From positions 1 through 43,301 of IMG/VR virus record IMGVR_UViG_3300010373_000074: a stretch of DNA of 43,301 bases; one strand, written 5' to 3'. Shown piece by piece: positions 19,383 through 42,821 of this stretch (position 1 is the stretch's first letter; the number at the start of each line of letters is the position of its first letter). Origin of the DNA: a virus. Position numbers and translations under genes: made by a program. Below the pieces are notes generated by a model. The model worked only from the letters and a program-made list of their open reading frames with translations. It was not told the DNA's origin and made no database searches.

Positions 19383-20228
19383 GTGACTACCGCACGCGAA
19401 ATTATCGACCTCGCGTTGCGCGACGCTGGTGTTCTCGGTGTGGGGCAAACGGCCTCCGCCGAGGACACCAACGGCGGCTTGCGTCGGCTCAACATGATGC
19501 TCGGTCAGTGGAATGCGCAGAGGTTTCTCGTATTCCGCCTGATGGACGCGTGGTGCCAATCCACGGGTGCGATCAACTACCAGGTCGGACCCGGAGGAGA
19601 CATTGACATGCCGGTGCGCCCCGCTCGCATAGAGGGGGCATTCTTCCGGCAGGGCGGCTCAACGCCGCACGAGTTTACACTGGACGGCAGCATTACAGAC
19701 GGTTCCGATGTTCTCGCTCCGGCTATTACGGGCGGCAACATCATAGATTGGCCGCTTAGGCTTATGGAGAGCCGTGAGGAATACAACTCAATCGCCCTGA
19801 AGGGATTGGGTATGTTTCCTACGGCTGCTTACTATGATCCGCAGATGCCGTTCGGGCGGCTGTATGTGTGGGCGGTGCCGCCATCGGCTTACGAGCTGCA
19901 TATTCTGGTGCGGGCTCCGTTGCAGACGTTCCCGAATTTGAGCGACAACTTTCTGCTGCCTCCAGAGTATGACGAGGCGATTCACTACAACCTCGTGGTG
20001 CGGTTGCAGGCGGCTTACGGGCTGTCTCCCACACCATTTGCGATTGACCGTGCGCGCAATGCGATGAGCGTCATTCGCTCCGCCAACGCGCAAATCCCGC
20101 TGGCGAGGATGCCTGCCGCTCTTTGGCATAGGCATGTAGGGCAGGGCAGTTATGGTGTCGGGGCGTTCGGGTTCGCGCCGTCTGCATCGGATGGAAAGTT
20201 CATTTTGAATAAGAGCACATTAGGATGA
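19383..20228 (+). CDS. Tail accessory factor, P22 gp4-like
   Basis: 281 residues from GTG 19383, directly after the previous stop. The N-terminal helix block (TTAREIIDLALRDAGVLGVG, then GLRRLNMMLGQWNAQRF) is the usual beginning of P22 gp4-type proteins, the first tail factor to bind under the portal, which helps to keep packaged DNA inside. P22 gp4 has 166 residues; this version is longer because of a beta-rich C-terminal half (INYQVGPGGDIDMPVRPARI and on), as in many gp4 homologues outside Salmonella. Placement after coat matches P22. Confidence 0.85.
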   Translation: MTTAREIIDLALRDAGVLGVGQTASAEDTNGGLRRLNMMLGQWNAQRFLVFRLMDAWCQSTGAINYQVGPGGDIDMPVRPARIEGAFFRQGGSTPHEFTLDGSITDGSDVLAPAITGGNIIDWPLRLMESREEYNSIALKGLGMFPTAAYYDPQMPFGRLYVWAVPPSAYELHILVRAPLQTFPNLSDNFLLPPEYDEAIHYNLVVRLQAAYGLSPTPFAIDRARNAMSVIRSANAQIPLARMPAALWHRHVGQGSYGVGAFGFAPSASDGKFILNKSTLG

Positions 20229-22279
20229 CGGGTTTCCCATGGGCTTCCGGAGATGAACTGGATGCTGATGATCTGAACGATGCGATTAATTCTCGCGCTC
20301 CTTCGGTTGCTCTGACAAATGCAGATACCGCTTTAGCAAACGCAGCTGCGGCCCAGACCGCAGCTAACGATGCGGCTACGGCGGCGATTGCTGCGCAAGC
20401 TACGGCAGATGCCGCGTTGCCGTTGTCTGGCGGCACAATGTTGGGCGACCTGACTCTAAAGGGAGACCCCACCGCTCCTCTACACGCGGCCACGAAGCGA
20501 TATGTGGACGCCACAAGTGGGAATGTAACCGGTCCTAGTAGCAGCATATCCGGAAATATCGTCGCGTTCGATGGTACCGGTGGAACGTCGATATCTGATG
20601 CTGGGATTTCGACATCGTTAGGAGGGATACAAGCTAACTCTACGGGGAGTTTCTTTACCAATCAGTCTACTCCTGCCGTTCTTTTTAAGGTGGGCGACAG
20701 GTTATACGGAGGGGCGGCCACCGTTTATAACGGTGAATTTCCGCAAAGCAGTGGTAATACGACGTGGGCCGATGCCGTCTGGGGCTTTTGTATCGTTGGC
20801 GCATCCGATTGGGGCGTGATCGACGATCATAGTGTCCAAGCGATTACCGCAGTGTCTCAGGCATCGGAAACGATTCCCGTTGGCTCCCAAGGGGCTATGG
20901 GCGGCCAATTTTTAAGTTACAATCCCGCAGCGACACAAACTGTGTCGAGCTGGGGTGTTTACGCGGAGTCTCGACGCATAGACGGCGCCAACAACGCTAT
21001 ATTTGGCGCGGAGATTGATACAGCCAATCTGGGGAATGACGTATATAGCGGCCCTACGTTTGCCAATTCAGCCGGATTCTCTGCTGGTCTATGGGTGGCC
21101 AGTGGGGCTGGGATGGACCCAGCACTACTTACTCCGTCAACCTGGGCAATCGGCATTGCCAATAACGGCAGCACGTTCAACGTCGGAATAAACTTCCACA
21201 CAGCAGCCATCACCGGCACTGATGGAACGTCCGGGTTCGGACAAGCGATATTCATGGGGCCACATCAGGGCCTGTCATGGTCGAATATGTCCGGCGAGGA
21301 GACGGCCAGGATATACGGCACTGGAACCGTAGCCGCAAACGAACAGGATTTGGTGTTCCAAGATGCCGGAACGACGGTCTTTCAGGGAACCAGCCAAGTA
21401 TTCCAGGTTTCTCACATCGCAAACGCCGTCAACGGTGTAAATATACATCCATCCGCAACCGGTAATCCGACCGGCGTATTCGCATTCGGATCGGATGCCA
21501 ACGTTGCCCTACAATTGTCTCCGCAGGGGAGTGCCCCGGTACTTTTCACATCAAACATAACTCCAAATATAGACAATGGGTTTTCATGCGGTCAAAGCGG
21601 CTCCCGTTGGAGTTCGATATGGGCAGCAAACGGCACGATTCAGACATCCGATCCGACACTGAAGACCGATATAGCGCCGCTCCCGTCAGTACTTTCTCTG
21701 GTCGCAGACCTGTCGCCCGTTACTTACAAATGGAAGGACGGCGGCTTATCGCCGGAGGCGAAGCTGGTTGAGGTAGACGAACCGGTATTTAAGACCGTCA
21801 CTGAGACGGTAGACGAGCCAGAGGTTCAGAAGGACGGAACCGTGCGACTGGTAAGTCATACCAAGCAACGTAGAGAGCCGGTTGTTGACTTATTGCCGGT
21901 ATTGGATGCGACAGGGAAGCCGGTTGTCGATCGGATTATTGCCAGGACAGTGCGGAACGACAAAGGCCATCGTGAGCACGTTATGGAAGACCGGCCCAGA
22001 ATGCACGCCGTCCATCGGACGGAGAAAGTCACCAAAACCATTTACGAAAACGTTTCCCGCCCTGGGAAGCGCACGCATTGGGGATTCTTGGCGCCAGACG
22101 TAAAATCCGCATTTGAAAAGATGTCGATGGACTTTGGCGGATACATTAAGGGCGAGGATGGGACAGAGGCCATTCGCCCAGACCAACTGATCCCCGTTCT
22201 TTGGAAGGCCGTTCAAGAGCTTTCTGAAGAAATTACATCGCTCAAAGAGCGTTTGGCTAAGCCAAATACGGCGCACTGA
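20225..22279 (+). CDS. Tail fibre with S74 chaperone domain
   Basis: 684 residues from ATG 20225 (ATGA overlap). N-terminal part: FPWASGDELDADDLNDAINS, then Ala-rich helical repeats and a fibre motif (LPLSGGTMLGDLTLKGDP). The long middle is Gly/Ser/Thr-rich beta structure. From Ser475 an intramolecular chaperone/peptidase S74 domain begins (TSDPTLKTDIAPLPSVLSLV), which trimerises the fibre and cuts itself off at the Ser-Asp site. The domain is 210 residues because of an unusual charged insert at about 503-610 before HWGFLAPDV. Fibre proteins bind host surface glycans. P22 has no gene in this position, so it is an addition. Confidence 0.82.
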   Translation: MTGFPWASGDELDADDLNDAINSRAPSVALTNADTALANAAAAQTAANDAATAAIAAQATADAALPLSGGTMLGDLTLKGDPTAPLHAATKRYVDATSGNVTGPSSSISGNIVAFDGTGGTSISDAGISTSLGGIQANSTGSFFTNQSTPAVLFKVGDRLYGGAATVYNGEFPQSSGNTTWADAVWGFCIVGASDWGVIDDHSVQAITAVSQASETIPVGSQGAMGGQFLSYNPAATQTVSSWGVYAESRRIDGANNAIFGAEIDTANLGNDVYSGPTFANSAGFSAGLWVASGAGMDPALLTPSTWAIGIANNGSTFNVGINFHTAAITGTDGTSGFGQAIFMGPHQGLSWSNMSGEETARIYGTGTVAANEQDLVFQDAGTTVFQGTSQVFQVSHIANAVNGVNIHPSATGNPTGVFAFGSDANVALQLSPQGSAPVLFTSNITPNIDNGFSCGQSGSRWSSIWAANGTIQTSDPTLKTDIAPLPSVLSLVADLSPVTYKWKDGGLSPEAKLVEVDEPVFKTVTETVDEPEVQKDGTVRLVSHTKQRREPVVDLLPVLDATGKPVVDRIIARTVRNDKGHREHVMEDRPRMHAVHRTEKVTKTIYENVSRPGKRTHWGFLAPDVKSAFEKMSMDFGGYIKGEDGTEAIRPDQLIPVLWKAVQELSEEITSLKERLAKPNTAH

Positions 22280-22289
22280 GGATTTGAGA

Positions 22290-24791
22290 ATGCGCAAATT
22301 GCTTCTGCTTGGTTCCGCGTTGGCGCTCGCTCCGTTTGCGGCAGATGCGCAGAGGCCGCCGTCCTTTTTGCAGGGGCAGTCCCTCTCCTATTCGATGCTG
22401 AATAAGGCGTTTCAGAACACCATTGCCCTGAACGGCCTTAGCATAGTCGGAGCGTGTTCTGGCAATAGCTCGCCCAACGGTCCGAATCAGGCGACGATCA
22501 CCGTCACATGCCCCGGCGCTGGCCAGCCGCAGGGGCCGAATGGCTCCATCCAGTTGAACAATGGCGGCTTGTTCTCCGGCGTCACCATGAACGGCGATGC
22601 TGTGATGGATGCCAACGGCGTCCTGACGCTGAACACAGTCCCTGTCGCCAAAGGGGGCACAGGAGCCACTACGGCGGCGGCTGCACGGGTTAATCTGGGC
22701 ATCGCGACGGTTGGTGGCACGGGAGCATATAGCGACCTCACGGGCCTTCCCACGCTCGGCACGATAGCATCGCAGGCCATGCCGGGGGCTGGGCTTGTGA
22801 ACAGCACCGGAACCGCTCTGACGCCAGTACCCGCGATGAGCGGCGATGCGACGCTGAACCTGACCACTGGCGTCCTGACTCTCGGCACGGTCGGGGTGCC
22901 CAAAGGCGGAACGGGCGCCACGGCGTTTACGGCGCACCAACTTCTGGTCGGACAGGGACAGCTCGGCGTCACCACAACGACGGGCGGCACCTCGGGACAA
23001 GTGCTGACGAGTCAGGGGCCGAACTCCGATCCGACGTGGCAGACGCTATCTGGCGGAGGCGGCACGGGGCTTTCTCCCATCGCCAACAACACCCTGCTTG
23101 CCAATACGAGCGGGTTCAGTGCCAATCCTATCTCCACCACAATGACCGCCATGCTCGATGCCGGCATGGGCTCAACGCGCGGCTCCATCCTTGAGCGCGG
23201 CGCGTCCGGTTGGCAGCCGATTGTTCCCGGCACCGCTGGCAACTGCTGGACGAGCAACGGCATCAACGCCGATCCGAGCTGGCAGCCCTGTTCAGCTGGA
23301 ACTTCGTTCTCCGGGACTGGCGGCGTGGTTGGCGTGGATGCGAACGGCACACCGTTCGTATTCTCACTCAACAATCTGGCCGTTTCGACAGGGACTGGTT
23401 CAGGCGTCTTGTCGGTATCGCCGGGCGGCGGCACGTCGTCGGAACAGGTCAACCCGCAGACTGATACGACATACACAACGTCATCGGGCGACGCTACTCA
23501 GCTAATCACGTTCAGCAATGCGTCTCCTGTTGCTGTCACACTACCGGACCCTGGCACAGACATTCTGGGCGGTTGGTTTGCGGATTTCAGCAATTTAGGC
23601 GTTGGCCCTGTTACGTTTACGCCTGCTGGCAGCACGATTGATGGTGCGGCTAGCATCACGCTCTATCAGGGACAGGGCATTCGCATTGTCTCTGACGGCA
23701 ACAACTATTTCACGCAACGCGGCGGAATGCAGCCCACACAGATCGGGCCGCTGATTAACGTTCTGCCGGGCGCATCAGCTGTAGCTGACGCTGACACATT
23801 CCCCGTTGTGCAATCTGGCACAACTGCATCCAAGCAGACGATGGGCGCAGTGTGGACATGGGTTGGCGGTCACATGCCGAACTATCAGCCGCCCCAGGTT
23901 ATTGCGAGCACGAATTTCACGCTCGACGCCAATACGCATAACGGCAAGATCGTCACGGCTACGGCGCCCATCACTGTGAGCTTGCCTGCGGCTCTTGCGA
24001 GCTTGGGTGTTGGCTTTCGGACTGCGATCTTCAATCAGTCTGGTGGAGCTATTACACTTTCCAATGCGGGCGCTTCGTGGGGTGCGTGGGCCACCAGCTC
24101 TGGATCGCTTTCTATTCCGAACGGGCAAACGGCGCTTGTGACAGTGATAAAGCCGGCTACTGCTGGTGTCGTCTTTGCTGCTATCAGCACCACAGCGAGC
24201 GGCGGCGGAAGTAGTGTTAGTTTCCCGCCAGTCTCCGGCCGTTTCTATGCTCCCGACATAACGACGATAGGAAACCTGACACCGGTAACGGGGCGACTGT
24301 ACGCGCTACCGTACATTCTCCGGGCTGGCACTTATCGCGGAATGGCATTCGGGGTTCAGACTGGTCCATCGACCACGACGACATGCCGACAAGGAATCTA
24401 TTCCGACAACGGGTCGGGGAAGCCAGGAGTTCTGCTTGCCGAGAATATCGATTCTGTGCCAACGGGGTTCACAGGGAACGTCTACAACGACTTTACAGGT
24501 GGGGATTATACCGCCGCCACCGACATTCCTGTGTGGCTAGCTACTACCTGCAATGGCCCTAATGGAATGGTGGTCTACGCCGCTGATCTAAAATCTGGAT
24601 ATCTTCAGGGCTTTACGTTTTCGCAGTTAGGTTCTACTAACGGATTTGGCGTCAATCCGGACCTAGGCCTATATTCTACTGTCATCACGACTTATCCTGC
24701 TGGAACCTTGGCATCTACCAATTCGGGTAATTTCGGCGCGGTTGCGTATGCGCTCGGTTCGGTTACTGCTCCGAATATAAGGGCTCGATGA
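22290..24791 (+). CDS. Large fibre-like protein with signal peptide
   Basis: 833 residues if ATG 22290 is used (TTG 22284 adds MR); GAGG lies upstream. The N-terminus is a textbook Sec signal peptide: RK, a hydrophobic core (LLLLGSALALAPFA) and a cleavage-type ADAQ. The body carries tail-fibre repeats (VAKGGTGATTAAAA and VPKGGTGATAFTA) and Gly/Thr-rich beta structure; cysteines occur in close pairs (VGACSG..VTCPG, AGNCWTSNG..QPCSAG), which would suit disulphide bonds outside the cytoplasm. The C-terminal 200 residues differ in style (SGRFYAPDITTIGNLTPVTG). Virion proteins do not normally need export, so this signal is unusual. It may serve as a secreted fibre or surface factor. Confidence 0.75.
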   Translation: MRKLLLLGSALALAPFAADAQRPPSFLQGQSLSYSMLNKAFQNTIALNGLSIVGACSGNSSPNGPNQATITVTCPGAGQPQGPNGSIQLNNGGLFSGVTMNGDAVMDANGVLTLNTVPVAKGGTGATTAAAARVNLGIATVGGTGAYSDLTGLPTLGTIASQAMPGAGLVNSTGTALTPVPAMSGDATLNLTTGVLTLGTVGVPKGGTGATAFTAHQLLVGQGQLGVTTTTGGTSGQVLTSQGPNSDPTWQTLSGGGGTGLSPIANNTLLANTSGFSANPISTTMTAMLDAGMGSTRGSILERGASGWQPIVPGTAGNCWTSNGINADPSWQPCSAGTSFSGTGGVVGVDANGTPFVFSLNNLAVSTGTGSGVLSVSPGGGTSSEQVNPQTDTTYTTSSGDATQLITFSNASPVAVTLPDPGTDILGGWFADFSNLGVGPVTFTPAGSTIDGAASITLYQGQGIRIVSDGNNYFTQRGGMQPTQIGPLINVLPGASAVADADTFPVVQSGTTASKQTMGAVWTWVGGHMPNYQPPQVIASTNFTLDANTHNGKIVTATAPITVSLPAALASLGVGFRTAIFNQSGGAITLSNAGASWGAWATSSGSLSIPNGQTALVTVIKPATAGVVFAAISTTASGGGSSVSFPPVSGRFYAPDITTIGNLTPVTGRLYALPYILRAGTYRGMAFGVQTGPSTTTTCRQGIYSDNGSGKPGVLLAENIDSVPTGFTGNVYNDFTGGDYTAATDIPVWLATTCNGPNGMVVYAADLKSGYLQGFTFSQLGSTNGFGVNPDLGLYSTVITTYPAGTLASTNSGNFGAVAYALGSVTAPNIRAR

Positions 24792-25972
24792 TGCGAGCCC
24801 TATTGCTAGGAACGGCTATTTGCTTTGTCGCTTGTAGCGCCGATGCCGCAATCTTGCACGTCGGGCCGGGCCAGACTTACGCCACGATTCAAGCGGCGGT
24901 GGACGCGTCCAGCGACGGCGATACGGTAGAAGTGCAGTCTGGCACTTACACCAACCAGACTGCCTCCATCGTGAAGAGCATCACGCTTACGGCGGTTGGT
25001 GGTCGGGTGAGCGTGCCGCAGACGGTTGCTGTGCCCAACCAAAAGGGCATCTTCGTCGTGGGCAGTCTTACCACGACGCCGCGCGTCACGATCGATGGCT
25101 TTGATTTCAGCGGTGCGACTACGCCTTTTGGCAACAATGCCTCTGGCGTGGTTTACCAATCCGGATATCTGACCCTGACCAACGATTCATTCCACGATAA
25201 CCAGGACGGCATTCGCGCCGCGCCTAGTACTGTTGGTAGCCTACTGATCGACCACTGCGAATTCGGCAACAACGGCATTAACGACGGCCTTACGCACAAC
25301 GTCTACGTCGGCATAATCCCGCAATTCACGATCCAAAACAGCTACACGCACGATCCGAAGGGCGGGCACGAGATAAAGTCTCGCGCCCTCAATACCTACG
25401 TCGTGAATAACCGGATTTTCGACAACGCTGGGAATGGCTCGTATCAGGTCGATATCCCGCAGGGCGGCAACGTGACCATCACAGGGAATATCATCCAGCA
25501 GGGCACGAACAACGCCAATCCGAACATCATTGCTTATGGCGAAGAGAACGTTACTCAGAATCCCGGTAACGCCGTATCGGTCTCGAACAACGTGTTCGTG
25601 AATGATGATACGGGACATGCGCCGGTCGTGATGTTCAATCAGCGAACCGAAACGGCGGTTCTCACGAACAATAGCTATTGGGGCATCACGTCGGGTCAGA
25701 TTGCCGGTGGCAGCGGCCCCGTCAGTAGCTCGGGAGATGTGTTCCTAGGATCGCGCCCGACTCTGGATACGACGACGGTTCCCTATATGACGACGTATCC
25801 CATACCCATGACGCTTTCGGTCATCGCCGGGCGGCTTTCAATCACTAACGGCTTGCTGGCGATGGTGCCGCCCGGCAGCACGGGCGGGGGCGGTGGCGCT
25901 GTTGCCGGCGCATGGGCCGACGCAGACGGCACCGTGATTACAGATGCTGACGGCACGTCGATTACAGACTGA
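24788..25972 (+). CDS. Secreted beta-helix (pectate-lyase fold) protein
   Basis: 394 residues from ATG 24788 (a second ATG at 24791 is equally possible), overlapping the previous stop. The signal peptide is clear (MRALLLGTAICFVACSADA, cleavage near ADAA). The rest is a right-handed beta-helix: ILHVGPGQTYATIQAAVDAS, then repeated N-rich turns (NDSFHDNQDGIR, NSYTHDPKGGHEIKSR, NNRIFDNAGNGS, VSNNVFVNDDTG). Such folds bind or cut surface polysaccharides and form phage tailspikes. No catalytic set can be identified by eye. The C-terminus repeats ADADGT.VITDADGT.ITD. Paired with the flanking genes, it forms a cassette of exported fibre-like proteins. Confidence 0.78.
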   Translation: MMRALLLGTAICFVACSADAAILHVGPGQTYATIQAAVDASSDGDTVEVQSGTYTNQTASIVKSITLTAVGGRVSVPQTVAVPNQKGIFVVGSLTTTPRVTIDGFDFSGATTPFGNNASGVVYQSGYLTLTNDSFHDNQDGIRAAPSTVGSLLIDHCEFGNNGINDGLTHNVYVGIIPQFTIQNSYTHDPKGGHEIKSRALNTYVVNNRIFDNAGNGSYQVDIPQGGNVTITGNIIQQGTNNANPNIIAYGEENVTQNPGNAVSVSNNVFVNDDTGHAPVVMFNQRTETAVLTNNSYWGITSGQIAGGSGPVSSSGDVFLGSRPTLDTTTVPYMTTYPIPMTLSVIAGRLSITNGLLAMVPPGSTGGGGGAVAGAWADADGTVITDADGTSITD

Positions 25973-25984
25973 GCAGGAGAAATT

Positions 25985-26716
25985 ATGTCTCGCTTCTTTG
26001 CATCGGCGCTCCTTGCGTCTGTCGCATTGGCTGCGCCGGCATTCGCCGCGAATACGATTGACAACCATGCAGCGATCTCGCAGCCGGTTGTGACATCGGA
26101 CGAAATGCTTCTTTGGCGCTCGCCATCGACCACGGCGAAAACCACAGTCGGGCAGTTGTTCGGGCTGATGGGCGTCTCTGGCGACTGCTCGGGCACCACG
26201 GGGCCTATCGTGTCGATCGTGTGCAGCCTGCCAGCTAGCAAGATCACCAGTGGCACGTTCGCGGCGGCGCGGTTGCCCACTCCCACAGCGAGTAGCCTCG
26301 GCGGCGTGCAGTCGATCGCGCCCGTGACGCATCAATTCGTTACGTCGATCTCGAACACAGGAGCCCCTTCCCTCGGGCCTATTTCCGTAGCCGATCTAAG
26401 CGACGGTTCCTCAACGATGAGCGGAGCCGATATCAGTAACGCAATGCGTAGTGGAAGCTCGCCAACCGTGACGAGTTGCGGAACATCTCCCACGGTCGGG
26501 TCGGGATCGACCGATTATAGCGGAACCATAAACGTAGGCTCGGGAACGGTCACGGCCTGTACAGTGACGTTCAACGCTACCCACTCGCCGCAGCTGCGGT
26601 GTTGGGTTGCTCCTAGCACTCCAGTTGCATGGGGCACAAATCCGAGCACCGTTGCCCTTGTGGTATCGTTTTCTTCGTCGATTGGCGCCGGAAAGTTCGA
26701 TTATGGATGTAATTAG
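25985..26716 (+). CDS. Exported fibre-like protein, 243 aa
   Basis: ATG 25985 follows AGGAGA. The N-terminus is a signal peptide (FFASALLASVALAAPAFA, cleavage AFA-A). The mature part starts NTIDNHAAISQPVVTSDEML, then carries a phage-fibre motif with a likely disulphide (GVSGDCSGTTGPIVSIVCS) and an AARLPTPTASSLGGVQS block that is common in short tail fibres. The C-terminal Gly/Ser/Thr-rich part has two further Cys pairs (VTSCGTSPT, VTACTVTF). It is the third consecutive gene with a Sec signal. A role in binding outside the cytoplasm is inferred. Confidence 0.75.
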   Translation: MSRFFASALLASVALAAPAFAANTIDNHAAISQPVVTSDEMLLWRSPSTTAKTTVGQLFGLMGVSGDCSGTTGPIVSIVCSLPASKITSGTFAAARLPTPTASSLGGVQSIAPVTHQFVTSISNTGAPSLGPISVADLSDGSSTMSGADISNAMRSGSSPTVTSCGTSPTVGSGSTDYSGTINVGSGTVTACTVTFNATHSPQLRCWVAPSTPVAWGTNPSTVALVVSFSSSIGAGKFDYGCN

Positions 26717-26745: not shown

Positions 26746-28164
26746 GTGAGCAGAATTGCGCTTACCTCCGGGGCCTACCAGGCTAGAAGCATAATCGCAG
26801 CGGCCCAACGTTCCCTTAATCTCTTTGCGGAGAAGAACCCTACCGACGCCCCGGTGCCATTTACCTATTACCCCACGCCTGGGACAAGACTGCTTGGCAC
26901 ATCTCCCAACAATGTCGGCTGGCGGGGTCTCTATGCGGCGACGAACAGTAAGCTGTATGGGGTGTCGGGCAACACGGTCTATGCGATAGGCTCAGACTGG
27001 TCGTTTTCCTCAATGGGGACGATTGGCACTTCGTCTGGCCCGGTGAGCATGGACGATAATGCCACCACGATCGCTCTGGTGGATGGCTCAACCAGCGGAT
27101 ACGCCATCGATCTTGCGGCTTCTACGATGACGGCTATCACAGGAGACGCTTTTTACGGCGCTGACCACGTATCGTATATCGACACGTACTTCCTTTTCAA
27201 TAAGCCTGGAACACCTCAGTTCTATAGTAGCGACAGTAATTCACTCACTTTCGACTCTCTATGGTTTGCAAACAAAGTCGCATACTCGGATCATCTGGTG
27301 ACGTTGGCGGTTGCCCACCGCGAAATATGGCTTCTCGGTCAAACCACGTCTGAGGTGTGGATCGACGCAGGAGCCGCGCAATTTCCGTTCCAGGCCATGC
27401 AGGGCGTTTTTATCGACTACGGTTGCGCCGCGAAATACAGCGTGGCGAAGACGGACAACGCGCTGTTTTGGCTGGCGCGTGACAAAACCGGGCAGGGGAT
27501 CGTGCTGCGCGGTGCTTCATACGAGGCGACGCGAATTTCAACCCACGCCATCGAGAATGCGATATCGAAGTATCCGTCGATTTCTGATGCAATCGGATTC
27601 TGCTATCAGCAAGGCGGGCACGTTTTCTACGTTCTGACATTCCCTCGCGCCGATCAGACTTGGGTTTACGACATCTCGACCGGCCAGTGGCATGAATGGT
27701 GCTGGATCGACAGCAACGGCATTGAGCGTCGCCACCGCGCGAACTGCCATGCCTTTTGCTACGGCACGAACGTTGTCGGGGATTGGGAGAGCGGCAACAT
27801 CTACGCGCTCGATTCCAATGCCTTCACGGATAACGGAGCCCCCATCAAGCGCGTGCGCGGATTCCCGCACATGGTTGAGGACGGTAAGCGGGTGATGTAT
27901 CGGCAGTTCATTGCCGACATGCAGGTTGGAACGGCTCTTCCGACGAATGATGCCACGGTCAGCTTGCGGTGGTCGGACGATCGCGGGGCGAGCTGGGGCA
28001 CGCCAGTTCAGGGTTCTCTCGGCGCAACGGGCGAATATCTGACTTCAATACAGTTTCAGCGCCTCGGCATGGCGAGAGACCGAGTGTTTGAATTGGCGTG
28101 GTCTGCGCCAGTGTCTACGGCTCTTAACGGTGCGTTTGTTGATGCGCGAGTAGCTGCGACTTAG
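26746..28164 (+). CDS. Tail hub / DNA stabilisation protein, P22 gp10-like
   Basis: 472 residues from GTG 26746, the same length as P22 gp10. The N-terminus (RIALTSGAYQARSIIAAAQR, NLFAEKNP, PVPFTYYPTPGTRLL) is the characteristic start of Phage_stabilise family proteins, followed by beta-propeller-like repeats (GLYAATNSKLYGVSGNTVYA; LVTLAVAHREIWLLGQTTSE) and WVYDISTGQWHEW. gp10 hexamers bind below gp4 and hold the tailspikes. Gene order gp4, gp10 follows P22 apart from the inserted fibre genes. The family call is confident. Confidence 0.9.
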   Translation: MSRIALTSGAYQARSIIAAAQRSLNLFAEKNPTDAPVPFTYYPTPGTRLLGTSPNNVGWRGLYAATNSKLYGVSGNTVYAIGSDWSFSSMGTIGTSSGPVSMDDNATTIALVDGSTSGYAIDLAASTMTAITGDAFYGADHVSYIDTYFLFNKPGTPQFYSSDSNSLTFDSLWFANKVAYSDHLVTLAVAHREIWLLGQTTSEVWIDAGAAQFPFQAMQGVFIDYGCAAKYSVAKTDNALFWLARDKTGQGIVLRGASYEATRISTHAIENAISKYPSISDAIGFCYQQGGHVFYVLTFPRADQTWVYDISTGQWHEWCWIDSNGIERRHRANCHAFCYGTNVVGDWESGNIYALDSNAFTDNGAPIKRVRGFPHMVEDGKRVMYRQFIADMQVGTALPTNDATVSLRWSDDRGASWGTPVQGSLGATGEYLTSIQFQRLGMARDRVFELAWSAPVSTALNGAFVDARVAAT

Positions 28165-28185: not shown

Positions 28186-28833
28186 ATGACTGGTTATTCT
28201 GACTATGCGGCCCGCAAGATTCTAGATCATTCGGTGGGCAAGACTTCTTGGACTATGCCAACCGCATATATGGGTCTCTACACCGTCCTGCCGACTGATG
28301 CTGGCACGGGCGGCACTGAGGTATCGACGGGCTCTTATGCGCGTGTCGCTACGTCTGGCGCCACATGGAACGCAGCTTCCGGCAGCGCACCATCCTCGAA
28401 TAGCAATGCGGCGGCCATCACTTTTCCGACCAGCACCGGCTCTTGGGGCTCGGTGGTCGGATGGACGATCATGGACGCGGCAACGGCGGGCAATCAGATT
28501 TTCTCGGACTATTTCGGTGGCTTTCTCTGGCTGCCGTTTACATGCACTAGTGCATCGCCAGGTGTGTTCACGGTGCCATCTCATGGCTTTAGCAACGGCG
28601 ATACCGTGGTGGTCACGGCAGAGGACGGCGGCGCGCTGCCAGCGACGGCCGGTTCGTTTGCGGGCCTCCTAACGGTGGCTAGCGCGACTACAGACACATT
28701 CACTGTCGGTGTGAACACCACCGGCACTGGCTCTGGCATGGTGCGTAAGGTGGTCGCACAGACAATCGGTGCTGGAGTCACGCCCTCTTGGGCTGGAGGC
28801 ACCCCCGGTGCCTTTGTGTTGACCCTTGCCTAA
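28186..28833 (+). CDS. Tail-fibre-type protein (first copy)
   Basis: 215 residues from ATG 28186, preceded by GGAGTGAGGA. The N-terminus (TGYSDYAARKILDHSVGKTS, TMPTAYMGLYTVLP) is the common phage tail-fibre head seen in many alphaproteobacterial phages. A Gly/Ser-rich beta region follows, then a FTCTSASPGVFTVPSHGFSN block and a conserved-looking end (GAGVTPSWAGGTPGAFVL). Nearly the same 215 residues return as the C-terminal domain of the next gene, so this is one half of a duplication. It likely attaches a fibre or a capping domain to the tail. Confidence 0.78.
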   Translation: MTGYSDYAARKILDHSVGKTSWTMPTAYMGLYTVLPTDAGTGGTEVSTGSYARVATSGATWNAASGSAPSSNSNAAAITFPTSTGSWGSVVGWTIMDAATAGNQIFSDYFGGFLWLPFTCTSASPGVFTVPSHGFSNGDTVVVTAEDGGALPATAGSFAGLLTVASATTDTFTVGVNTTGTGSGMVRKVVAQTIGAGVTPSWAGGTPGAFVLTLA

Positions 28834-28841
28834 AGCGTAAA

Positions 28842-30779
28842 ATGGCAACGCTCTACGTCTCGACAACGGGCAGCGACGCGGCGGCCGGCACGATCGGCGC
28901 TCCCTTCGCTACCGTCACGCACGCTGCCAATGTCGCCACGGCCGGTAGCTCTGTTTTCGTGCGCGCGGGAACCTACAGTGAGGCCGTGACTGTCGGCAGC
29001 AGCCGGGACGGCACATCGGGATCGCCTATCGTCTATGCGCCATTCACCGGCGAAACGGTGATCTTTGACGGTTCGGCCCTTGCGGCTGGCACAGACATCA
29101 TTTCTATCTTTGCCGACTACATCACTTTTACCGGGTTCGAGATCAGGAACGCCAAGAATCACGGTGTCATGGCGTACGACACGCACGGCGTCGTCATATC
29201 GAACAATGTCATCCACGGCTGCATTCAGCACGGCATCTGGGCAGGCGGCGAACTCGGCGCTTCATCCAATACAATGATCAGCGGCAATACGGTCTATGAC
29301 TGCTGTCGCTCCAATGTGGCTCGGTCTGGCGGCAGCGGGTGGGGCCAGGGAATCGGCGTCAACTTCTCCGATGGCTCCACGATCACCGGCAATACCGTCT
29401 ATAAGAACTACGGCGAGGGGATCGGGGCGCCACAGAGCAGCGGGGTCACGATCTCGCACAATGTCGCCTATGACAACTACTCCATCAACATCTACCTCGA
29501 CAACTCGCCCCTTGCGGTCGTCGATAGCAACCTGACCTATTCCAGCGGAGATACGGGCTACTATCATGGCACCACGCCAGTTCCGTCCGAAGGGATAGGT
29601 TTTGCGATTGAGACTGTCTCATCCCAGCGCCCGTTAACCAGCCCGATCGTCACCAACAACATATCCATCAATGATCTGATCGGCATCTACTACGGCAACT
29701 ATGGGACTGGCGGCGGTATCCAGAACGGCGTTTTCGCCAACAATACAGTCGTCAATCCATATTCCTCGGGGAAGTGCGTTAACTTCGATGCCGATGCCGG
29801 CCATTCTGGCAACGTTTTTCGCAACAACATCGTCTACCGTAGCCCCGCTGGAACGCTGATTACCGGTACGACCACCGGCTTTACGTTCGATCACAATTGC
29901 TGGTTCGGCACGACCCCTACTGGCTCGTGGCGCGGAACTGGCGATGTCGTTGGCGATCCCATTCTGATTAATCCGGGAACGTTCGTTGCGACCGATTATA
30001 AGCTAAGCACGGCGTCTCCTGTTAAGAGTGCCGGAACTACCATAGCGACGGTTACAACAGACTATTCCGGTGCAACGCGCACGGCTCCTTACAGCATGGG
30101 TGCGTTTGGGCCTCCCGCTGCGGCACTCATCGTAAGCACCGGATATTCCGACTACGCTTGGCATAAGATTTTCGATCACTCGGTTGGCAAGACGGCATGG
30201 ACAATGCCGACTGCTTATATGGCTTTGTTCACAACTCTGCCGAAAAGCGATGGGACTGGCGGTGTGGAAGTAAGCGGTGGCTCCTATGCGCGAGTCACCA
30301 CGTCTGGCGCCACATGGAACGCGGCCGGCGGCAGCGCGCCGTCATTCAATAGCAATGCTGCAACTATTTCCTTTCCACTTTCGACGGCTTCTTGGGGCGC
30401 AGTTTGCGGTTGGGGAATCATGGATGCGGTTTCCGGCGGGAATCAGATTTTCGCTGATTTCCTTGGGGCGTCTTTGTATGTGCCTTTCACATGCACCAGT
30501 GCATCGCCTGGAATTCTGACGATTCCGGCGCATGGCTTTAGCAACGGCGATACGGTTATTGTAACCTCAGATGCCGGCACGTTGCCTGCAACTTCCGGAT
30601 CGTGGGGCGGGTTGCTGACAGTCGCCGGTGTGACCACGGACACATTCAATGTCGGGGTAAACACTACAAGTTCGGGATCGGGAATGCTCCGTAAGGTGGC
30701 GACGAAAACGGTTGGGGCTGGCGTGACTCCCTCTTGGGTTGGCGGCGCCCCAGGCGCCTTTGTGTTGAGGCTTGCCTGA
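28842..30779 (+). CDS. Beta-helix tailspike fused to fibre domain
   Basis: 645 residues from ATG 28842. Residues about 1-430 are a right-handed beta-helix of the pectin-lyase/DUF1565 type (YVSTTGSDAAAGTIGAPFAT, then repeated NN/turn motifs such as VISNNVIHGCIQHGIWAGGE and SGNTVYDCC). Residues from about 433 repeat the whole product of the preceding gene (TGYSDYAWHKIFDHSVGKTA to GAGVTPSWVGGAPGAFVLRL). The fold suggests polysaccharide binding or cleavage at the host surface. The fusion of a spike with a fibre domain already coded upstream looks like gene duplication followed by joining. No catalytic residues can be assigned. Confidence 0.8.
   Translation: MATLYVSTTGSDAAAGTIGAPFATVTHAANVATAGSSVFVRAGTYSEAVTVGSSRDGTSGSPIVYAPFTGETVIFDGSALAAGTDIISIFADYITFTGFEIRNAKNHGVMAYDTHGVVISNNVIHGCIQHGIWAGGELGASSNTMISGNTVYDCCRSNVARSGGSGWGQGIGVNFSDGSTITGNTVYKNYGEGIGAPQSSGVTISHNVAYDNYSINIYLDNSPLAVVDSNLTYSSGDTGYYHGTTPVPSEGIGFAIETVSSQRPLTSPIVTNNISINDLIGIYYGNYGTGGGIQNGVFANNTVVNPYSSGKCVNFDADAGHSGNVFRNNIVYRSPAGTLITGTTTGFTFDHNCWFGTTPTGSWRGTGDVVGDPILINPGTFVATDYKLSTASPVKSAGTTIATVTTDYSGATRTAPYSMGAFGPPAAALIVSTGYSDYAWHKIFDHSVGKTAWTMPTAYMALFTTLPKSDGTGGVEVSGGSYARVTTSGATWNAAGGSAPSFNSNAATISFPLSTASWGAVCGWGIMDAVSGGNQIFADFLGASLYVPFTCTSASPGILTIPAHGFSNGDTVIVTSDAGTLPATSGSWGGLLTVAGVTTDTFNVGVNTTSSGSGMLRKVATKTVGAGVTPSWVGGAPGAFVLRLA
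30138..30776 (+). repeat. Duplicate of the gene at 28186-28833
   Basis: The C-terminal third of the beta-helix gene repeats the upstream gene almost residue by residue; blocks such as FTCTSASPG, HGFSNGDTV and GAGVTPSW are identical. DNA similarity continues to the very end of both genes (GGCGCC/GGCACC..GCCTTTGTGTTGA). This is a direct duplication of about 640 bases, diverged by scattered substitutions and a few short indels. Confidence 0.85.
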
Positions 30780-32384: not shown

Positions 32385-33533
32385 TTGTCCTACGTTTACG
32401 CCCTCCCGGCTGAACTTACGGGGGCAACCCCGCTTGCATTAACCAGTCGCGGGGCTGCGTTCTCGCGCGGCCGGTCTGTTCTTTCGCTTTCTCAGGCACT
32501 AACCTCTGTTGGTAGTGTACGGTCGCAGGGCCAAAGCGTTCTTTCGCTTATCCAGGCGCTAACGTCCCGTGGCGCCGGATATTCGCGCGGCAAAGGCGTT
32601 CTCTCGCTTTCTCAGCCTCTTACCGCTCGGGGCTCCGCGTTTTCTCGGGGGCACAGCACTCTTTCGCTCTCGCTGGCCCTGACATCGGTTGGAAGCACAC
32701 GATCCTCGGGTAGTGGCGCTCTTTCATTCTCCCAGGCTCTGGCGTCGGTTGGAAGTGCAAGGTCGCAGGGTCAAGGCGCTCTCTCGCTTGTCCAGGCCTT
32801 GGCTTCGCGTGGTTCCGGATACTCGCACGGCAAAAGCGCCCTTTCGCTTTCTCAGGCGCTGACTTCGCGTGGTGCAGCATTTTCGCGTGGCAAGGTTGCT
32901 CTCTCGCTCATCCAGCCCCTCACGGCTACGGGCTCAGCATTTTCTCAGGGGCGGGGCACCCTATCGCTTTCCCAGCCTCTGATATCGGTTGGTAGCGTAA
33001 GGTCACAGGGCCAAGGCGCTCTGCTTCTCTCGCAGGCCCTGACATCGCGTGGCGCGGCGTTCTCGCGCGGGCGCGGTGCCCTTACTATGTTGTTGTCTCT
33101 GCACCTGACTTCGCTCGGCAGCGCGCGGTCCACGGGCAGAAACGGCCCCTTCATTCTATCTCTTGCGCTCGTGTCGCAAGGTTCTTCGTTCAGTCGTGGT
33201 CGTGGTGTTCTGACGGTAGACGGCACGCCGTTGGCGTTCGTCTCACGCGGAAGCGCATTCAGCCACGGCCGAGACGTTCTTACCCTTCCTATCATCGTGC
33301 CGCTGCATTCTAGAGGACAGGCTTTTGCGCATGGCGGGATGGTGCGCGGCGGTCGGCAAGGCACGGGCGTTCTGACATTAAGGCCCTTCATACCAGCTCA
33401 GAACATCATCAACATCGGAATGCCGCAGCGTGGGCTTCCGATTGCCGATCCGAAAACCGGACAGATGAACCAAAACTGGTATCTGTTCTTCCATGCACTC
33501 TGGCAGCGGGGCGGTGGCCCCATAGGGAATTGA
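32385..33533 (+). CDS. Virion protein of fifteen 20-residue repeats
   Basis: 382 residues from TTG 32385, with GGAGGG upstream. Residues 18-217 are ten exact-length 20-residue units of the form ALTSRGAAFSRGRSVLSLSQ; five longer degenerate units continue to about 334. Each unit has a Ser-Xaa-Gly pair, an aromatic or Val, RGxG and an LSLxQ strand, so it could form a beta-solenoid or stacked hairpins. The last 48 residues switch to a virion motif (GMPQRGLPIADPKTGQMNQN, NWYLFFHALWQR) that is common in P22-like tail modules, often near the needle or ejection genes. I do not recognise the repeat from any family. It is rich in Arg and Ser and has no Cys. Confidence 0.78.
   Translation: MSYVYALPAELTGATPLALTSRGAAFSRGRSVLSLSQALTSVGSVRSQGQSVLSLIQALTSRGAGYSRGKGVLSLSQPLTARGSAFSRGHSTLSLSLALTSVGSTRSSGSGALSFSQALASVGSARSQGQGALSLVQALASRGSGYSHGKSALSLSQALTSRGAAFSRGKVALSLIQPLTATGSAFSQGRGTLSLSQPLISVGSVRSQGQGALLLSQALTSRGAAFSRGRGALTMLLSLHLTSLGSARSTGRNGPFILSLALVSQGSSFSRGRGVLTVDGTPLAFVSRGSAFSHGRDVLTLPIIVPLHSRGQAFAHGGMVRGGRQGTGVLTLRPFIPAQNIINIGMPQRGLPIADPKTGQMNQNWYLFFHALWQRGGGPIGN
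32436..33386 (+). repeat. Tandem 60-base coding repeats
   Basis: Ten in-frame units of 60 bases (32436-33035) are followed by five units of 63-87 bases. Units differ at many third positions yet keep blocks such as GCGCTCTTTCGCTTTCTCAG and variants. Two flavours alternate, one with SVGSxRSQGQ and one with SRGxxFSRG, suggesting growth by copying of multi-unit blocks. Confidence 0.85.
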
Positions 33534-34087
33534 TGCCGCATTTTACACGCATCGCGGACGGCATCGATGTTCGTCCGATCCTTTGCCAACTAGACGCGCA
33601 TCCCGAGCTTTGGGATCAGCATACGGCTCGCAAGATCGCGCCCGGCACACCGCATTCGCAGATGTCGGATATCTGGGTGCGGTGGCGTGCTCTGGAGGAA
33701 CTACGCGAGCCGAAGGATTACGCGGAGCCGCATTTCGGAGTCTGGTATCCGGCTTGGCACGCGCTATCGGCCTTACAGCCTCTGGTCTACGGGCTCATGG
33801 CGCAAGTGCGGTGCGTGCATCTCGGAGGCATCCTCATTACGCGTATACCACCGGGCGGGGGGATCGAACCACACCACGATCGCGGCCCCTGGCACGCTGA
33901 ATATCACAACTGCAAGGTCTATGTGCCGCTTAAGAGTAACGCCCGTTGCGTCAATGTGTGTGAGGGTGAAGAGGTCAATATGAGGGTCGGAGAAATCTGG
34001 ACCTTTAACAATCTCCTAGTCCACAGCGTTGAGAACAACGGCGCGGAAGAGCGGATTACCGCCATTATCAGTATGCGAGTTGAGTGA
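33533..34087 (+). CDS. 2OG-Fe(II) oxygenase (Asp/Asn hydroxylase-like)
   Basis: 184 residues from ATG 33533 (shares a base with the previous stop; TTG 33530 is also open). The fold markers of aspartyl/asparaginyl beta-hydroxylases are present: the HxD iron site at His114 and Asp116 (GIEPHHDRGPWH), the distal His164 in LLVHSVENNG and the 2-oxoglutarate Arg174 in AEERITAI. Strands such as YHNCKVYVPL complete the jelly roll. Such enzymes hydroxylate a protein residue or a small molecule using Fe(II), O2 and 2-oxoglutarate. Its place among tail and ejection genes raises the chance that it modifies a virion protein. The target is unknown. Confidence 0.82.
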   Translation: MPHFTRIADGIDVRPILCQLDAHPELWDQHTARKIAPGTPHSQMSDIWVRWRALEELREPKDYAEPHFGVWYPAWHALSALQPLVYGLMAQVRCVHLGGILITRIPPGGGIEPHHDRGPWHAEYHNCKVYVPLKSNARCVNVCEGEEVNMRVGEIWTFNNLLVHSVENNGAEERITAIISMRVE

Positions 34088-34434
34088 TGGATTACGAGAT
34101 TGCGCCAGAGCAGCCGTACGGCGTCGAAATCAAAATGGCCGATGGTATTTTCGTCAAGCAGATGGCCATACCCAAGGCCGGAACCATCGTTCCTCAGCAT
34201 TCCCACAAATATGAGCACCTGAGCATGCTGGCGCGTGGGTCCGTGCGTGTCTTGCGTGATGGCGAGGACGCCGGTCTGTTCTACGCTCCGACCGGTATTC
34301 ACATTCCTGCCGGCTGCAAACACACATTTTGCAGTTTGGAAGACAATACGGTCATCTATTGCATCCATAATATCAAGACCGCCGAAGAAGTCGAGATATT
34401 GGAAGAGCATCACATTGTAAGGGGTGCGGCCTAA
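34087..34434 (+). CDS. Cupin-domain protein
   Basis: 115 residues from ATG 34087 (a GTG at 34084 gives one more). A single cupin barrel is visible: the first motif has HSHKYEHLSMLARG with two His and a Glu, and the second motif has GIHIPAGCKHTF with Pro and His. Cupins of this size bind a metal and act as isomerases, dioxygenases or sensors. It overlaps the oxygenase gene by one base, and both are beta-barrel metal proteins, so they probably act together. The reaction cannot be read from the sequence. Confidence 0.78.
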   Translation: MDYEIAPEQPYGVEIKMADGIFVKQMAIPKAGTIVPQHSHKYEHLSMLARGSVRVLRDGEDAGLFYAPTGIHIPAGCKHTFCSLEDNTVIYCIHNIKTAEEVEILEEHHIVRGAA

Positions 34435-39271: not shown

Positions 39272-40309
39272 ATGGCAAGTTTGATTCCCCCCGGCAAGGT
39301 TCAATTCCTAGACGCTGACGGGAAGCCGTTGGCTGGCGCTAGTGTAGATTTCTACATCCCAGGCACGACAGATCGCAAGGACACGTACCAGGACGCGGCG
39401 CAAACGACTCTGAATACCAACCCGGTCATTCTCAATGCAGCTGGCGAGGCGGTGATCTACGGCACAGGGGTGTACCGGCAGGTCGTGACTGACGCTTCCG
39501 GCAACCTGATCTGGGATGTGGAGACAGCCGAGCCCGGCACACAGATCGATAGCAGCACAGTAGCAGACTTTCTATCCGTCTCGGGAACGTCTTCTCTTTC
39601 TGATGTAAACATATCGGGCGTCTTGAATGCGACGAATGTAACGGTAAGCGGAAACTTGTCCTCCGGCGGAATATTCTCGGCTCCTGGCACGTCTGTTCTC
39701 GGCACAGCCACGGTCGATAATCTTATTGTTAACGTCAATGCCAACCTGTCCACCACCAATCTTACGGGAAATCTTGGTGTGACCGGAGATTTGTTCGTTT
39801 CTGGCGTTTCGTCTGCCGGAGATACAACACTCACAACCCTTACTGTGACGAGTGGTATTAATGGGTCTGCTGTCGGATGGTCATTGTTCCCAACAGGGAC
39901 CGGTGCTTTTAATGGTCCCTATACTGTTGGAGTGAGTGTTTCATCCGCCGTTTTGGCGGGATCGTTTATCGCGGCCTCTGATGCTCGCGTGAAAATCAAC
40001 GTAGCAGATGTGCCGTTTTCGGATGCTTACCGCTTCGTCCGGACCATGCGCGCCAAGATTTTCATGAAAGATGGCGCTCCAGATGCAGGCTTCATTGCCC
40101 AGGATGCCATACTGAATGGCTTTCAGAGGATGGTCGTTGTCACGAATACGGACGATCCTCGCATGTCGCACGGCGACGATGTTTCGCCTGTCGGGAAACG
40201 ACTCAACCTAAATTACAATCACGCTACCGCATACCATCATAGGATGATAGACTACCTCCTCGATCGCGTGGACGATTTGCAGAAGCAGATTGACCTATTG
40301 AAGAACTGA
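39272..40309 (+). CDS. Tail fibre in gene 9 position, S74 end
   Basis: 345 residues from ATG 39272, with a weak GCGGGT upstream. The N-terminus (GKVQFLDADGKPLAGASVDF, YIPGTTDRKDTYQDAAQTTL) is a common particle-attachment head of podovirus tail fibres. The middle is a Gly/Ser/Thr fibre with periodic strands (LSDVNISGVLNATNVTVSGN). From Ser236 a compact S74 chaperone domain begins (SDARVKINVADV), with GFIAQDAI and a final coiled-coil helix (DYLLDRVDDLQKQIDLLK). The gene stands where P22 carries tailspike gene 9 and is probably the receptor-binding fibre. It is short, lacking an enzymatic beta-helix. Confidence 0.8.
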   Translation: MASLIPPGKVQFLDADGKPLAGASVDFYIPGTTDRKDTYQDAAQTTLNTNPVILNAAGEAVIYGTGVYRQVVTDASGNLIWDVETAEPGTQIDSSTVADFLSVSGTSSLSDVNISGVLNATNVTVSGNLSSGGIFSAPGTSVLGTATVDNLIVNVNANLSTTNLTGNLGVTGDLFVSGVSSAGDTTLTTLTVTSGINGSAVGWSLFPTGTGAFNGPYTVGVSVSSAVLAGSFIAASDARVKINVADVPFSDAYRFVRTMRAKIFMKDGAPDAGFIAQDAILNGFQRMVVVTNTDDPRMSHGDDVSPVGKRLNLNYNHATAYHHRMIDYLLDRVDDLQKQIDLLKN

Positions 40310-42286: not shown

Positions 42287-42296
42287 AGGATATCCA

Positions 42297-42821
42297 ATGC
42301 GTTTCTTTCACCGCAGGGGGCTGTTTGCCCTCGCCATCCTACCTGCGTTCATGTTCGCAGGCTGCTCGTCCACCACCGGCAACGGCACCACGCCAACGCA
42401 GGTGCTTGCGGACGCATCGGCCATCGTGACCGCGCTCGGTAATGCCGTGATGCAGATCGGCGTTCAGTCTCCGGGCCTGATCCCGGATGCGCAGATCACG
42501 CAGATCAAGAGCTACATCTCCGACGCTAATTCGCTGCTGGGCTCGCTCTCCGCCAGCACTGCGGCCAATGAGTCGGCAACCGTACTCAATCAGGTTTGCA
42601 ACGACGTGGAAGCTGTTCTCGTCACGCTCACGAAGACGCAGAGCTTGCCGCCGCAGTACGTGTCCATCGTGCAGGCCGCAGCGGTGGTCCTGCCGATCGT
42701 CCAAGCGTTCGTGAACGCCACGCTCGGCATTGTCAATCCCGCGCCCGCTCCGGCCGCTGTCTCGGCTGCTCAGTCGCATATGACGGTTAGCCAAGCTCGT
42801 CACGTCTTGGGCGAGCACTAA
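42297..42821 (+). CDS. Phage lipoprotein, 174 aa
   Basis: ATG 42297 is preceded by AGAGGA. The N-terminus is a lipoprotein signal (RRGLFALAILPAFMFAGCSS) with lipidation at Cys23. The mature protein is helical and Ala/Val-rich (TQVLADASAIVTALGNAVMQ, QVCNDVEAVLVTLTKTQSLP, VSIVQAAAVVLPIVQAFVNA). It is longer than most Rz1 outer-membrane spanins. With the coiled-coil membrane protein at 40923 it may form a spanin pair, or it may be an envelope protein that alters the host surface. The stop shares a base with the next ATG. Confidence 0.68.
   Translation: MRFFHRRGLFALAILPAFMFAGCSSTTGNGTTPTQVLADASAIVTALGNAVMQIGVQSPGLIPDAQITQIKSYISDANSLLGSLSASTAANESATVLNQVCNDVEAVLVTLTKTQSLPPQYVSIVQAAAVVLPIVQAFVNATLGIVNPAPAPAAVSAAQSHMTVSQARHVLGEH

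Follow-up and report, generated by a model that had tools for sequence, protein, structure and literature searches.

Predicted Sec signal peptides on three consecutive fibre-like genes of a P22-type podovirus and on related phage fibres and tailspikes

Three consecutive fibre-like genes (genes 1–3) of a P22-type, short-tailed podovirus each begin with a predicted Sec signal peptide. On balance, we favour the reading that their products are late fibre-like adhesins that are exported through Sec, cleaved, oxidised in the case of genes 1 and 3, and bound to virions at lysis. This reading draws on sequence features, namely the signals and their conservation pattern, the number of cysteines, the operon context, and the fusion of a signal to a tailspike head-binding domain in other phages. 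The three genes appear to be members of a broader class of exported fibres and spikes, seemingly undescribed so far, that would be stabilised by disulphides. Open PMC full texts were searched for accounts of tailspikes or fibres with signal peptides and yielded none (subscription papers lay outside this search).

The window, i.e., the whole stretch of DNA analysed, comprises the 43,301 bases of one viral record, whose + strand encodes a P22-type virion module (Table 1). Genes 4 and 10 are adjacent in P22; four genes separate their counterparts in the window. Genes 1–3 lie between the gp4-like and gp10-like genes and not after the ejection-protein genes. The sequence-only reading had called the row of three fibre-like genes with signals the most unusual organisation in the window, which is a fair description. 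A search with profile A6 located the tailspike head-binding domain in the window at 39272 only; genes 1–3 lack it. In the Pfam search, PF23140 (Podophage GP4 fiber I, Pfam Gp80) matched the genes at 28186 and 28842 and was not found in genes 1–3. These two adjoining genes (28186-28833 and 28842-30779) share the gp80-type fibre domain, which is fused behind a beta-helix in the latter, and their junctions are near-identical in sequence (WAGGTPGAFVLTLA and WVGGAPGAFVLRLA). Further downstream, the product of 32385-33533 is built of ~25-residue repeats (LTSRGAAFSRGRGVLSLSQALTS), and an Asp/Asn beta-hydroxylase-like gene (PF05118, 1e-11) and a cupin-like gene (33530-34434) are placed between the fibre genes and the ejection-protein genes. 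Close to the window end, 42291-42821 encodes a putative lipoprotein (LPAFMFAGCSS) that is also present in a 57 kb relative and has no Pfam match; it would add another exported product, one that probably belongs to the lysis or host-surface region.

Table 1. Predicted features of the window, with positions counted from its first base
Feature	Position	Strand	Basis
Terminase	12277	+	Part of virion module
P22 portal	13720	+	PF16510, 6e-153
P22 coat protein	17643	+	PF11651
gp4-like head-tail adaptor, upstream border of the cassette	19383..20228	+	phrog_637, 6e-14
Signal-less fibre with S74 chaperone domain, adjoins gene 1 upstream	20225..22279	+	PF13884
Gene 1, putative exported fibre-like protein, 833 aa	22290..24791	+	ORF; predicted signal
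Signal peptide of gene 1, MRKLLLLGSALALAPFAADA, cut before QRPP	22290..22349	+	Rule-based scorer
Gene 2, putative exported right-handed beta-helix-like protein, 394 aa	24788..25972	+	ORF; predicted signal
Signal peptide of gene 2, MMRALLLGTAICFVACSADA, cut before AILHV	24788..24847	+	Rule-based scorer
Shine-Dalgarno AGGAG of gene 3	25975..25979	+	Sets start before hydrophobic segment
Gene 3, putative exported fibre-like protein, 243 aa	25985..26716	+	ORF; predicted signal
Signal peptide of gene 3, MSRFFASALLASVALAAPAFA, cut before ANTID	25985..26047	+	Rule-based scorer
Four-cysteine C-terminal domain of gene 3	26432..26713	+	Common to signal-bearing fibres of unrelated phages
gp10-like head closure protein (Hc3), downstream border of the cassette	26746..28164	+	phrog_578, 8e-115
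Signal-less fibre with tailspike head-binding domain	39272..40309	+	Profile A6

Signals were called by a home-made rule that combines a basic n-region, an uncharged hydrophobic h-region and an A-x-A type cleavage site. Among all window ORFs, the rule-based scorer picked only genes 1, 2 and 3 (scores of 6.2, 5.5 and 5.2), and the runner-up reached 3.9 from an internal start. The Sec signals that had been noticed from the sequence alone on the genes at 22290, 24788 and 25985 were recovered, each with a basic n-region, a hydrophobic h-region and a small-x-small cleavage site. As a control, the rule fired on 4 of 244 ORFs (1.6%) of P22, T7, BPP-1, Pam1 and BA3, none of them a fibre or spike.

The same reading had described tail-fibre motifs or a beta-helix behind the signals, and this held in part. 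The motifs GGTGAT, GDATL and DPSW are visible and gene 2 has beta-helix character, but neither gene 1 nor gene 3 had a significant match to a fibre family in Pfam or PHROGs. A PDB search matched gene 2 to a PL6 lyase at E = 0.07 only, and its product is perhaps a polysaccharide-binding or -cleaving beta-helix. No match to genes 1–3 was found by tblastn against 50,697 phage records, and AlphaFold2 with shallow alignments returned poor models (mean pLDDT of 42.6 for gene 3 and 47.1 for gene 2). An N-terminal motif, G..L....LN.A[FI], is common to gene 1 and the signal-less fibre at 20225; the independent cases are few and the link is suggestive. The claim that two of the genes contain cysteines suited to disulphide bonds agrees with the counts, as the mature parts of genes 1 and 3 contain six cysteines each. 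Those of gene 1 (residues 56, 74, 319, 334, 699 and 754) are all invariant in the related records L010 and L066. Both genes therefore show the even mature count of an oxidised periplasmic protein (DsbA substrate), whereas gene 2, with a single mature cysteine, does not.

The cassette has relatives in L010 (a 57 kb record), L066, L050, L002 and L011, the last of which carries a truncated GH5-like/collagen-binding protein in the gp4-gp10 slot. In most of the more distant gp10 relatives, this slot holds no signal-bearing genes, so the cassette is a feature of the window's branch. Of note, three of the relatives carry a fourth signal-bearing gene of ~970-990 aa behind gene 3 (L010:5068-8004, L002:1363-4329 and L011:1851-4760), which is absent from the window and has no Pfam match. 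Two of its three signals resemble a twin-arginine signal at their start (NRRRFLLGG, NRRKLLGG), and Tat export is therefore possible. The 57 kb relative has an additional signal-bearing ORF of 893 aa (L149:14555-17236, - strand), whose mature N-terminus is similar to that of the fourth gene (LTLNGKVLTVGGQVLTEPS).

The C-terminal 95 residues of gene 3 make up a four-cysteine domain (C-domain) that is absent from genes 1 and 2. A scan with this domain gave 71 viral loci, in which the ORFs that carry it range from ~115 to 1,500 residues; their bodies (fibre, spike or lyase) are unrelated to one another, and nearly all have a predicted signal. Among those with a known 5' end, 33 of 40 distinct ORFs passed the signal rule automatically, compared with 41 among 183 further fibre-like genes and 35 among the 709 remaining, non-fibre genes of these related loci. 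Most of the ORFs that failed either are over-long, the good signal lying at an internal start codon, or have a signal just below the threshold. Families assigned to the signal-bearing proteins by Pfam and PHROGs were collar, pectate-lyase, GDSL, LamG, tail fibre and tail spike. Cysteines 1-4 are present in 51, 50, 48 and 48 of 51 non-redundant members, and the gaps are mostly at contig ends. The sole full-length domain without cysteines 3 and 4 (L115) has lost them jointly, which hints at disulphide pairs 1-2 and 3-4. Searches with tblastn of the 50,697 phage records and of plasmids gave no match to the C-domain, and its PDB matches were weak and probably due to chance. A first genome scan gave no relative. 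The second scan found an Acetobacteraceae prophage (L125), which together with Acetobacter phage phiAX1 offers the nearest named host hints, and membrane-anchored proteins with few or no cysteines and ~35-55% identity over part of the domain. The latter (L127-L137) come from MAGs labelled Saccharibacteria, Patescibacteria, Parcubacteria or just bacterium, mostly from Saccharibacteria-type genomes.

Exported bacterial proteins favour even cysteine counts (PMC7678975), and the same bias was found here. Among non-redundant full-length fibre-like ORFs, 54 of 66 signal-bearing ones have an even count and none has zero, whereas the signal-less ones comprise 24 with an even, 49 with an odd and 44 with a zero count (24 even of 73 that contain cysteine; Fisher 4e-9). 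Part of this set was gathered through the C-domain, which leaves parity intact because four cysteines do not change it; with C-domain members left out, signal-bearing ORFs are 29 even versus 7 odd. The bias recurred in non-redundant full-length tailspikes with a head-binding domain, where the signal call used hydropathy only and was blind to mature cysteines. All 30 such tailspikes with a signal have an even count (2 to 20 cysteines in 341 to 1,370 residues), compared with 11 even, 19 odd and 1 zero among the 31 without (Fisher 5e-8, with kinship not fully removed). Cysteine density is similar in the two groups (1.19 versus 1.11 per 100 residues). The tree of the head-binding domain shows just two changes of signal state. 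The trait is accordingly lineage-inherited, the Fisher value overstates independence, and an independent-pairs test of signal against parity has no power. What is repeated many times is the retention of parity while the number of cysteines changes.

Signal-bearing tailspikes would link export to the virion. In L071/L117, the signal peptide is followed directly by a tailspike head-binding domain. This domain corresponds to tailspike domains of solved structure (9vyg, 7eeq), and the N-terminus of the signal-less fibre at 39272 in the window shares 58% identity with it. L118 and L120 likewise combine a signal with this domain, and their signals are unrelated. The predicted cleavage sites (AQA-TLLPNAK and FG-QTSLLPNAK, the hyphen marking the cut) coincide with the starts of signal-less members (MASLIPPGK, MATLLPNGK). 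The L117, L118 and L120 records are 48-57 kb long and have a P22 portal and exactly one head-binding protein each; in L117 and L118 this protein is encoded directly after the ejection genes. A further scan with the head-binding domain, in which 80 loci were taken of 280 candidates, gave sixteen more signal-bearing records with one head-binding protein each and a P22 portal in 14 of 16. Overall, 19 of 19 signal-bearing records have exactly one head-binding protein and 17 have a P22 portal; because selection of the loci rested on similarity to a query with a signal, the share with a signal is no measure of prevalence. In some P22-portal podoviruses, the exported protein is probably the virion tailspike itself. 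Because true tailspikes with a head-binding domain carry signal peptides, the premise of the sequence-only reading, by which export of virion components is not expected, probably does not hold for these phages. Of the three roles it had offered (periplasmic fibre assembly, decoration of the cell surface and secreted polysaccharide binding), periplasmic fibre maturation is favoured for the class on the same grounds; for the window's own genes, attachment to the virion, surface decoration and secreted polysaccharide binding are all candidate roles.

Two other accounts concern the N-termini themselves. If the signals had arisen by chance or from wrong starts, translation would begin behind the hydrophobic segments and the proteins would be cytoplasmic, and downstream GTG/TTG/ATG codons are indeed present in each gene. 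However, ribosome-binding sites precede the signal-bearing starts, with AGGA at 22279-22282 for gene 1, the Shine-Dalgarno sequence of gene 3 (Table 1) and only a weak AAGG for the translationally coupled gene 2, whose start overlaps the stop of gene 1 as ATGA. At start codons right behind the hydrophobic segments, such sites are weak or absent. Moreover, the signals are retained in 2-5 relatives per gene, and the rule fires rarely on reference phages. We consider this account largely refuted and extremely improbable. Also improbable, though somewhat less so, is an uncleaved hydrophobic N-terminus that acts as an anchor, either tethering the fibre to the membrane or docking it within the tail. 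The N-terminus of gene 1 would suit such an anchor, as its signal is 85% identical among relatives and the mature part 76%. Against this, all three genes have small-x-small cleavage sites, and the segments of the other two drift: the signal of gene 2 is 32% identical to that of L010 (mature part 91%) and the signal of gene 3 is 27% identical to that of L002 (mature part 77%). In addition, the predicted cleavage site of the exported tailspikes is the usual start of the head-binding domain.

A more serious contender, which we nevertheless rate well below virion binding, accepts export but places the products off the virion, as secreted or surface-held binders or enzymes acting on the polysaccharide or receptors of the infected cell. 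They could aid virion release, stop wasteful re-adsorption or exclude superinfection. Such roles fit the lack of a head-binding domain in genes 1–3, and they are consistent with the similarity of gene 2 to secreted beta-helix proteins, with the GH5-like protein in the slot of L011, and with the two signal-bearing genes, one a GH66 glycoside hydrolase, in the gp4-gp10 slot of phiAX1. The window phage also already owns the signal-less fibres 20225, 28186, 28842 and 39272. On the other hand, genes 1–3 use tail-fibre repeats and sit within the virion operon, which is not a moron-like place, and the signal-bearing head-binding tailspikes of related phages suggest that export and virion attachment are compatible.

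We return to export followed by virion binding. Export of the three window proteins is well supported, as is disulphide formation, by the drifting signals of genes 2 and 3, the conserved cysteines and the even-cysteine bias. In the proposed course of events, genes 1–3 would be translated late, alongside the head and tail genes, and their products would pass through the host Sec translocon and be cleaved by signal peptidase I. The products of genes 1 and 3 would be oxidised by the host Dsb system in the periplasm and thereby stabilised by disulphides. The mature adhesins would wait in the periplasm and dock on finished virions once the cell has been opened by holin, endolysin and spanin. Such late docking is plausible given podovirus assembly, in which tailspikes are added last, and given the ability of P22 tailspikes to bind finished heads in vitro. 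The weakest step is virion attachment of the window's own three proteins, because no head-binding domain was found in them. Three findings count against this course: the window's head-binding fibre at 39272 has no signal, gene 2 has one cysteine only, and the GH66 enzyme in the same slot of phiAX1 also fits a secreted enzyme.

A broader proposal, to which we give equal measures of belief and doubt, is that many P22-type podoviruses use two-compartment assembly, in which heads are built in the cytoplasm while tailspikes and further fibres are exported through Sec, trimmed and disulphide-bonded in the periplasm and fitted at lysis, the cassette described here being one branch. If true, this would be a large exception to the textbook view that tailed phages assemble entirely in the cytoplasm. 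Phages of the exported-tailspike class would then depend on host Sec, signal peptidase and Dsb, and their spikes could be shared among co-infecting phages, in the periplasm or the lysate. Recombinant spikes and depolymerases of this class would need an oxidising compartment for their production. A signal peptide combined with an even cysteine count could serve as a genomic marker for exported fibres among 'hypothetical' phage genes.

Among known systems, the closest structural counterpart is the tailspike of Pseudanabaena phage Pam1 (PDB 7eeq; also 9vyg/9vyh), which has the head-binding domain in common with L117, L118, L120 and others, and is encoded after the ejection genes, as in L117 and L118. 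Unlike the L117, L118 and L120 proteins, Pam1, PAE2, P26218 and the window's 39272 begin directly with this domain and have no signal; genes 1–3 differ from the Pam1-type tailspike in lacking the domain. Fibre-like proteins with a signal also occur in cultured phages, namely BcepC6B gp19 (tail fiber) and Xanthomonas phage PBR31 orf035 (putative structural protein). Like genes 1 and 3, both have even mature cysteine counts; they are not known to be homologous to genes 1–3, and the annotations inspected do not mention the signal. The one mention of a signal peptide in the PBR31 paper concerns an esterase (PMC10975493). In Acetobacter phage phiAX1 (LC644973), two consecutive signal-bearing genes occupy the same gp4-like/gp10-like slot; they encode a fibre-like protein and a GH66 enzyme, whose GH66 domain is unrelated to genes 1–3. 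The use of host Sec by phage late proteins has a precedent in the Sec-exported endolysin Lys44 of fOg44 and in SAR endolysins (PMC6116005; PMC3765740). Those proteins are lysis enzymes, whereas the class to which the window genes appear to belong consists of fibre- or spike-like proteins with predicted cleavable signals and disulphide-type cysteines.
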